In this document: piece by piece, positions 26,949 to 29,975 of the stretch | Numbering within the stretch: the first letter of the stretch is position 1 | Layout: the number at the start of each line of letters is the position of its first letter | Origin: Anaerosoma tenue | GTDB lineage: Bacteria; Actinomycetota; Coriobacteriia; Anaerosomatales; Anaerosomataceae | Direction of reading: 5' to 3' | Length of the DNA stretch: 64,000 nt | Assembly (NCBI RefSeq): GCF_023161965.1 | Contig: NZ_JALNTY010000001.1 | Location: 434,001-498,000, forward strand | Position numbers and translations under genes: made by a program | The notes under the pieces: generated by a model | Seen by the model: the letters and a program-made list of their open reading frames with translations, nothing else | Databases searched by the model: none | Told to the model about the DNA's origin: nothing

Positions 26949-29720
26949 TCAGCCGAGCTCCGCGACCACTTCCGAGCAGCGCCCACACAACCCGTCCGGA
27001 CCGAGCGCGCGCAGGTTCCAGCACCGCGGACACTTCTCCCCGGACGCACGCTCCACCCGTACGGAGATCTCCGACGACTCGGCGCCGAGGGCGACCTCTG
27101 AGACGATGAAGAGCTCCGCGAGCACGCCGCTGTGACGCGCGCCCAGCACCTCGAGCACCTCGGCCGGGGCGTCGACGACGAGCCGCGCCTCCTGGCTCTT
27201 GCCCACCGTCCCGGCGTTCCGCGCTTCCTCGAGCGCCTTGGTGGCAACGTCGCGCACCGCTAGCACGACACCGTACTGCTCCCGCAGGACCGCCGCATCA
27301 TCGGCAGGAACGTCCACGGCAGGCCAGCCCGCGAGCTGCACGCTCACCACGTCGCCGCGCAGCGCTTCGGGCATGAACTGCCATACCTCCTCGGTGGTGA
27401 ACGTCAGCACCGGCGCGATCAGGCGCACCAGCGTGGTGAGGATGGTCGCGAGCACCGTCTGCGCGCTCCTGCGGCCCGTGGAGTCGGCGGCGTCGGCGTA
27501 CAGCCGGTCCTTGAGCACGTCCAGGTAGTACGAGGACAGCTCTGTCACGCAGTAACCATGCACCGCGTGGAACACCTGATGGAACCGCCATCCGTCGTAC
27601 GCGGCCGTCACTTTGGCCGTGAGGTCCGCGAGCTGCACCAGCGCGAACCGGTCCATCTCCTCCATCTCGCTCCATGCCACCTCGTGCTCCGGGCTGTAGT
27701 CGTAGAGGTTCGACAGCAGGAACCGGAAGGTGTTGCGGATGCGGCGATACGCCTCGCCGGTCCTGTCGAGGATCTCGTTGGAGACGTTGATGTCCTGGCC
27801 ATAGTCTGCCGAGGCGACCCACAGCCTGATGATATCGGCGCCTGACTTCTCGATGACATCGAGCGGCGAGATGGTGTTGCCGAGCGACTTGGACATCTTG
27901 CGGCCCTCGCCGTCCACGATGAACCCGTGGGTGAGCACGCGCTCGTAGGGAGCGATACCGTACGCTCCCACGCTCGTGAGCAGCGCCGACTGGAACCATC
28001 CGCGGTGCTGGTCGGACCCCTCGAGGTACAGCTCGGCCGGGCGGTGCAACTCATCACGGGCCTCAAGCACCGCGGTGTGCGACACACCCGACTCCCACCA
28101 CACGTCCACGATATCGTCCTCGGGCTTGAGGTCGTCCACACCCGCGCCGCATCGGCCGCAGACCGTGTCCTGCGGCAGGTAGTCGGCCGGCTTGTGCGTG
28201 AACCACGCGTCCGCGCCTTCGGTGCGGAACAGGTCGATCACCGCGTCGAACGTCGCCTCCGTGGCCACGGTCTCTCCGCACTTGGCGCAGGTGAACACGG
28301 GTATCGGCACCCCCCATGCGCGCTGGCGGCTGATGCACCAGTCGGGCCGGTCGGCCACCATCGAGGACATCCGGTTGACGCTCCACCCGGGGATCCATTG
28401 CACCTCGCCGATCGCACGCATGGCGTTCTCGCGAAGACCGGTCTTCTCCATGCTCACGAACCACTGCTCCGTGGCGCGGAAGATCACCGGCTGCTTGCAT
28501 CGCCAGCAGTGCGGATAGCTGTGTGAGATCCTCGCCGACGCGACGAGCGTCCCGCGCTCGCCGAGCCATTCGATGATCCTGGGATTGGCGTCCCACACGC
28601 GCATCCCCTCGAAGGGACCCCCGCCTGCGTCGAACGTGCCGTCGTCCTGCACGGGCATCGGCATCGGCAGTCCGTGCCGGACGCCCATGATGTAGTCCTC
28701 GTCGCCATGGCCCGGCGCGGTATGGACGGCGCCGGTACCTGTGGAGAGCTCCACGTGCTCGCCCGTCACCACAACACCGCTCACGCCCTCGTGGACCGGC
28801 TGGGCATAGTGCAGTCCGGCGAGATCGCGCCCTTTCACCCGCGTGTCGAGCACCTCGTAGGACTCCCAACCCGCGGCCCCGGCCACCGATGGCACGAGCA
28901 CCTCGGCCATCACGAGAACGCGCCCGTCGGGCGTTCTCACGCCCACGTAGTCGGCGTCGTCGGCAAGCGTGACGGCGACGTTGGCCGGAAGCGTCCACGG
29001 CGTTGTGGTCCAGATCAGCAGCGACACCGGGCCGGCCGCGTCCCACGGCGTCTCATCCGTGAAGGCGAACGCCACGTAGATGGAGTCCGACGTCTCGTCC
29101 GCGTACTCGATCTCCGCCTCGGCGAGAGCGGTGTGGCAACGCACGCACCAGTGGATCGGCTTGGCGCCCTTGTGTATGGCGCCGTCGAGGTACATCGTCT
29201 TGAAGATCTCCACGTTGCCGGCCTCGTACTCGTGCGCGAGCGTCAGGTACGGGTCGTCCCAATCCCCGCGCACGCCGAGCCGCTTGAACTCCTCGCGCTG
29301 CACGTCCACGAACTTGAGCGCGTAGTCGCGGCACAGTTCGCGCAGCTTGGCCTGACTGATGGCGGCCATCTTCTCCGGGCCGAGGTTCTTCTCCACCTGG
29401 TGCTCGATCGGCTGACCGTGGCAGTCCCAGCCCGGCACGTACGGCGAGTAGCAGCCACGCATGCTCTTGTACTTGACGATGAGGTCCTTCAGCACCTTGT
29501 TGTAGGCGGTGCCCATGTGGATGTGGCCGTTCGCGTACGGGGGGCCGTCGTGCAGCACGAAGGGCTCGCCATCACGGGTCGCCTCAAGCGAGCGCCGGTA
29601 GATGTCGTTCTCCTCCCAGAACCGCAGCCAATCAGGCTCTCGGGTACTGAGGTTCGCGCGCATCGGGAACTCCGTGCGCGGGAGGTTCATCGTGCTCTTG
29701 AAGTCCTGCTTCTCGCCCAT
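26949..29720 (-). CDS. ileS: Isoleucyl-tRNA synthetase
   Basis: A 923-residue class I synthetase. The HIGH-type motif is GPPYANGHIHMG and the KMSKS loop is GRKMSKSLGN. An editing (CP1) domain occupies about residues 190-420, and the C-terminus has a zinc ribbon CPRCWNLRALGPDGLCGRC. ATG 29720 (MGEKQDFKSTMNLP) is chosen to match the family N-terminus; longer in-frame starts are less likely. Expression is controlled by the T-box leader at 29767-29975. Confidence 0.96.
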   Translation of the reverse strand: MGEKQDFKSTMNLPRTEFPMRANLSTREPDWLRFWEENDIYRRSLEATRDGEPFVLHDGPPYANGHIHMGTAYNKVLKDLIVKYKSMRGCYSPYVPGWDCHGQPIEHQVEKNLGPEKMAAISQAKLRELCRDYALKFVDVQREEFKRLGVRGDWDDPYLTLAHEYEAGNVEIFKTMYLDGAIHKGAKPIHWCVRCHTALAEAEIEYADETSDSIYVAFAFTDETPWDAAGPVSLLIWTTTPWTLPANVAVTLADDADYVGVRTPDGRVLVMAEVLVPSVAGAAGWESYEVLDTRVKGRDLAGLHYAQPVHEGVSGVVVTGEHVELSTGTGAVHTAPGHGDEDYIMGVRHGLPMPMPVQDDGTFDAGGGPFEGMRVWDANPRIIEWLGERGTLVASARISHSYPHCWRCKQPVIFRATEQWFVSMEKTGLRENAMRAIGEVQWIPGWSVNRMSSMVADRPDWCISRQRAWGVPIPVFTCAKCGETVATEATFDAVIDLFRTEGADAWFTHKPADYLPQDTVCGRCGAGVDDLKPEDDIVDVWWESGVSHTAVLEARDELHRPAELYLEGSDQHRGWFQSALLTSVGAYGIAPYERVLTHGFIVDGEGRKMSKSLGNTISPLDVIEKSGADIIRLWVASADYGQDINVSNEILDRTGEAYRRIRNTFRFLLSNLYDYSPEHEVAWSEMEEMDRFALVQLADLTAKVTAAYDGWRFHQVFHAVHGYCVTELSSYYLDVLKDRLYADAADSTGRRSAQTVLATILTTLVRLIAPVLTFTTEEVWQFMPEALRGDVVSVQLAGWPAVDVPADDAAVLREQYGVVLAVRDVATKALEEARNAGTVGKSQEARLVVDAPAEVLEVLGARHSGVLAELFIVSEVALGAESSEISVRVERASGEKCPRCWNLRALGPDGLCGRCSEVVAELG

Positions 29721-29766: not shown

Positions 29767-29975
29767 GGCGCGCCCGTCCGCGTCTGGGACGAAGCGCGCC
29801 TCCATGAGGTCTACTCCGCGGTACCACCCAGCTTGCGCACCTCGGATGAGGCCGCGCCACTCGGTCGCCCGATAACGGGGGCTGCCGTCGACGTCTACTT
29901 GTCCCTGCCGGGCCGTTCGGGCCGAGGCTCTAGGGTGATCTTCGGAACCGCCGCGCCACGCGGGCTCCCACTGTC
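29767..29975 (-). promoter_or_regulatory. T-box riboswitch of ileS (short Stem I type)
   Basis: The leader contains the canonical T-box bulge sequence TGGGTGGTACCGCGG (29816-29830), which pairs with the tRNA acceptor end. About 105 bases upstream, GGTTC and GAGCC form a short stem whose loop holds ATC (29937-29939), an isoleucine codon fitting the specifier. A GGCC-CGAAC-GGCC hairpin follows (Stem II) and CCGTTATCGGG lies in the Stem III position. Downstream GGCGCGC and GCGCGCC form a hairpin (29767-29800). Uncharged tRNA-Ile would switch on ileS; whether control is on termination or translation is not resolved. The 5' part overlaps the upstream coding region. Confidence 0.85.

Follow-up and report, generated by a model that had tools for sequence, protein, structure and literature searches.

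The ileS leader of Anaerosoma tenue is a genuine T-box of the ordinary full-length kind. By our estimate (probability about 0.86), it is a class I T-box that attenuates ileS from a promoter of its own at 30094-30066, with the ~54-codon tail by which the neighbouring gene overlaps it bearing no sign of maintenance as protein. Positions are those of the window, i.e. the whole 64,000-nucleotide stretch of A. tenue DNA that was analysed, and all features described in it lie on the minus strand, where the upstream gene (30745-29930) is followed by the T-box leader and then by ileS (29720-26949), which encodes an isoleucyl-tRNA synthetase of 923 aa from the ATG at 29720 (TIGR00392, 909.6 bits versus a cut-off of 621.4).

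Identity and anatomy of the ileS leader

The Rfam covariance search that the original prediction had proposed was performed on 701 bases in E-value mode, and the T-box model RF00230 aligned end to end (model positions 1-219) at 30031-29782 with 66.8 bits and an E-value of 3e-14. This score is below the gathering score of 93; with gathering scores applied, Rfam returned zero matches to any family across the window, so E-value mode was required for the T-box to be seen. The match is beyond chance, given its E-value in 701 bases and the full-length matches recurring upstream of ileS in relatives; RF00230 was matched at E 0.001 or better in 41 of the 41 genomes searched, and above the gathering cut-off in 14 of them. 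Based on an exact match and the covariance alignment, the T-box sequence UGGGUGGUACCGCGG of the antiterminator lies at 29830-29816, its bulge TGGGTGGTACCGCGG being exact, just as had been noted from the sequence, and TGGNTGGTACCGCGG occurs a single time in the 2.1-Mb genome. Stem II, carrying AAGUAG (S-turn side), and the Stem IIA/B pseudoknot region with CCGUUA were aligned at 29926-29872. Folded in one piece, the leader, a GC-rich RNA, had a free energy no better than that of shuffles (z −0.12), and this fold was not taken as evidence.

For comparison with relatives, an IleRS N-terminal search yielded matches in 114 of 119 genomes, and the upstream DNA of 90 ileS loci was examined; exact TGGNACCGCG was found in 54 and was absent from the other 36, and the genomes behind these 54 leaders are related and hence non-independent. 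The covariance alignment and the aligned leaders define a canonical Stem I of ~100 nt at 30025-29927, with K-turn, specifier loop, AG bulge and distal loop. In the alignment, Stem I is bounded by GC (30025-30024) and GC (29928-29927), the AGGG/CCCU helix adjoins the specifier loop, GGACCG/CGGUuCC makes up the mid-stem, and the tip reads AGCGAGCGGG..ACAGUGGGAG..CCCGC. The original prediction had instead described an ultrashort Stem I of 5 bp. It seemed short because the interval inspected started at 29975, inside Stem I, and so lost the 5′ half (30025-29976); with a long Stem I, the supposed likeness to ultrashort-Stem-I actinobacterial leaders and the apparent conflict between a short Stem I and a terminator both fall away.

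The choice of specifier was right, since the covariance alignment and conservation place the codon AUC (Ile) at 29939-29937 in the setting GAA-G-AUC-A-CCC (GAA-G-AUC-A at 29943-29936). Conservation of this loop in relatives had been set beforehand as a test, and the GAA-N-AUC setting was found to precede the T-box sequence in 48 of the 54 motif-bearing ileS leaders, a count using one pattern whose misses may be divergent forms. Forty-five aligned Stem I leaders share the conserved AGCGAGCGGGG..GUG..AGCCCGC, corresponding to a long Stem I with the K-turn and the distal double T-loop region. Their specifier-proximal helix covaries (n = 45), being GGGG/CCCC in 25, GAGG/CCUC in 18, AGGG/CCCU in one (the A. 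tenue genome) and GGGG/CCCU in one. For the middle helix, the arms gave a mean of −9.1 kcal/mol with their own partners versus −6.1 kcal/mol with permuted ones, and 0 of 5000 permutations was as good; ranking of the arms among swapped partners was weak alone, the true partner coming among the top three in 11 of 45 cases.

Predicted terminator, promoter and mode of action

The terminator-like hairpin that had been recognized in the original prediction is present at 29800-29767 (GGCGCGC/GCGCGCC, inner CGUCC/GGACG), where it shares CGUCCC with the antiterminator, and its segment folds with −30.1 kcal/mol (z −1.96). Its U-tract UUUGCGUUGC (29766-29757) is weak, with 5 T in 10 in the A. tenue leader and 4 in its congener G002, so the strength of termination is uncertain, and a simple terminator scan detected none by its rule. 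At least 5 T in 10 follow the hairpin segment in 51 of 54 leaders, a count made without a control. The Shine-Dalgarno GAGAGGA (29735-29729) lies 3′ of the hairpin and outside it; relatives keep the terminator hairpin, with the ribosome-binding site outside it as well.

A promoter downstream of 29975 with a different Stem I had been named as a finding that would speak against the original prediction; across the 1.3 kb scanned, the sole promoter-like site was TTGACC-N17-TACCAT at 30094-30066, which lies inside the upstream gene, past the start of that gene and ahead of Stem I. Most relatives keep TTGACC-17/18-TAnnAT at the matching place, which in most cases is 246-312 nt 5′ of the T-box sequence. 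A promoter score of at least 8/12 was reached in 48 of 54 relatives, compared with 4.8% of shuffles of the same stretch and 4 of 207 windows further upstream, and a score of at least 9/12 in 39 of 54, compared with 0.8% and 0 of 207, respectively. Both the promoter and the termination are predicted from sequence. As the conserved promoter is situated between the start of the upstream gene and Stem I, the start codon of that gene should be missing from most leader transcripts, and few ribosomes would be expected on them.

By its anatomy and the established mechanism of the family, the leader would be a class I, long-Stem-I T-box that attenuates transcription, and it would bind tRNA as known family members do. 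Uncharged tRNA-Ile (anticodon GAU) would pair with AUC in the specifier loop of Stem I, the tRNA elbow would stack against the distal loop, and the UGGN bulge would pair with the NCCA end of the tRNA. This would hold the antiterminator so that RNA polymerase reads into ileS. Charged tRNA would be unable to hold the antiterminator, upon which the hairpin 29800-29767 would form and transcription would stop. The competition between antiterminator and terminator is predicted from their common CGUCCC.

The Bacillus ileS and tyrS leaders are examples of class I transcriptional T-boxes. The A. tenue leader resembles class I (RF00230) in the K-turn, specifier loop, AG bulge and distal loop of its Stem I, in its Stem II and pseudoknot, in its UGGN T-box sequence, in a terminator that, as read from the sequence, would compete for the same CGUCCC, and in a specifier, AUC, that matches the regulated gene ileS. 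It differs from class I leaders in being GC-rich, in the weak U-tract of A. tenue, and in that promoter and Stem I lie within an upstream coding frame in five genomes. In the parts of the published descriptions consulted, a long Stem I is expected of a transcriptional T-box (PMC7583486), and most class II translational actinobacterial ileS T-boxes have an intermediate or ultrashort Stem I and a hidden Shine-Dalgarno (PMC1262725, PMC7583486). Since actinobacterial ileS T-boxes are known from these sources to act on translation, an ultrashort-Stem-I leader hiding its Shine-Dalgarno, as in Mycobacterium and Nocardia, might be expected before an actinobacterial ileS, and the A. tenue leader does share with such class II leaders, as far as those parts describe them, the same gene and the presence of Stem II. 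We nevertheless consider this highly unlikely here, because the 45 aligned leaders conserve a full-length Stem I, including its K-turn, AG bulge and distal loop, GAGAGGA is outside the hairpin, and in most relatives the hairpin has a T-rich tract behind it; the long Stem I with its distal module and the free Shine-Dalgarno 3′ of the hairpin set the A. tenue leader apart from class II so described. Thus, with the class I reading, the Coriobacteriia studied here would use a long attenuating ileS T-box and so differ from the other Actinobacteria depicted in those sources, whose ileS T-boxes are translational.

The neighbouring frame across Stem I

The upstream gene was correctly described as reading through Stem I and the specifier. 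Its product, a predicted membrane protein, bears a weak similarity to DUF2244 that does not reach the Pfam cut-off (E 0.013). The frame of 271 codons (30745-29930) ends with TAG at 29932-29930, and the codons after ~217, a tail of ~54, overlap the promoter, the leader and Stem I. Relatives of the gene were found in 14 of 119 genomes, and its closest named records are from Coriobacteriia and Actinomycetota metagenome-assembled genomes. The frame crosses the promoter into Stem I in only five genomes, namely A. tenue (G000), G001 and G002 of one genus, and G016 and G041 of the sister genus, while the same gene stops before Stem I in five others (G006 and G020 of the sister genus, G008, G009 and G017).

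Differences at the three codon positions, counted over 10 non-independent pairs of the five overlapping genomes, were 0.33/0.24/0.49 in the gene body, 0.29/0.40/0.39 in the promoter plus linker and 0.17/0.28/0.18 in Stem I, so the third-position excess of the gene body is lacking in the overlap tail. The same frame is also stop-free in 23 of 42 leaders without an overlapping gene, and an open frame therefore needs no selection. Selection on the tail as protein is supported neither by codon positions nor by frame openness in other leaders. Within Stem I, the aligned frames show a compensatory change from a G-C pair in G002 to A30017-U29932 in A. tenue, which formed the neighbour's stop codon, U29932 being the first base of TAG. 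A leader peptide from ATG 30028 was rejected by eye, as this start shares the reading frame of the upstream gene and lacks a conserved Shine-Dalgarno in the aligned relatives.

Ribosomes finishing the upstream gene had been proposed to unfold the sensor and interfere with tRNA sensing, an idea weakened by the conserved promoter 5′ of Stem I and one that could still hold for read-through transcripts. In its strict form, the unfolding of Stem I would make the terminator fire and the overlap would have been selected to keep ileS operon-independent; this would suit the A. tenue frame, whose stop falls precisely on the 3′ strand of Stem I, and the three of five overlapping frames that stop further on, past Stem I. 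We hold it to be improbable, since the stop varies in position among the five genomes, G001 having its TGA just before the specifier loop triplet and the other four ending past the specifier, since the sister-genus G006 and G020 stop before Stem I, since the frame is open in relatives without any overlap, and since the tail has no codon-level constraint. A comparably small chance is assigned to dual control, whereby transcripts from the internal promoter would sense tRNA-Ile and those from the upstream gene would carry ribosomes through Stem I, blocking sensing and forcing termination, so that, if true, translation of one gene would insulate the next. A decaying upstream gene, the last 54 codons of whose long frame go untranslated in practice, would agree with a tail not conserved as protein and with a gene found in so few genomes, but in five genomes the gene body has an unbroken frame and still shows more changes at third positions; we rate decay the least probable of these explanations.

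For the separately transcribed class I leader that we favour, the overlap most probably reflects a lineage-specific tail of the neighbouring gene. In the A. tenue genus and part of the sister genus, the neighbour's frame has no stop before the promoter and runs on for ~54 codons through promoter, leader and Stem I, and the leader would work despite the overlap by being transcribed on its own, for which reason the overlap would be tolerated and the tail would probably be neutral. Overlap in five genomes and its absence in close relatives offer a natural series for testing the weight of translation across the sensor. In the part of the literature covered, PMC7583486, PMC1262725, PMC2494555 and PMC7778990 included, no description of a T-box inside an upstream coding frame was found. 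At thirty other T-box loci, two of which are ileS leaders, no clear gene lies across Stem I, as judged by length and codon composition.

Other T-box loci in the A. tenue genome

Outside the window, the ilvD leader (G000:C3, loci L139 and L152, also L153-L163) retains Stem I, Stem II and pseudoknot, with no UGGN discriminator up to ilvD. Of the 30 ilvD loci read, the 12 closest, A. tenue included, have such a discriminator-less leader, and G040 looks alike; 16 of the remaining 18 keep a GGGTGGTACCGCG. Specifiers in the 12 are CUC (6), AUC (2), CCC (2, A. tenue and G003) and GCC (2). In the ilvD leader, TGCCGCATG, downstream of the pseudoknot, and CATGCGGCA, ahead of ilvD, are complementary. A conserved CTGCCGCATGA follows the pseudoknot in 11 of 12 by exact pattern, and its complement CATGCGGC precedes ilvD in all 12, the G006 copy differing at one base. 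This leader may be a T-box that has been converted into a switch of a different kind.

Two further loci were recorded. At G000:C3:179248-179556 (L138), a T-box with the specifier AUG (Met) precedes a gene starting MAKTWEEINERIASG, which we take to be of the DUF39 homocysteine-biosynthesis type, and the same arrangement was seen in L026. At G000:C3:68893-69161 (L031), a T-box with the specifier UGG (Trp) precedes a gene that is presumably trpE.
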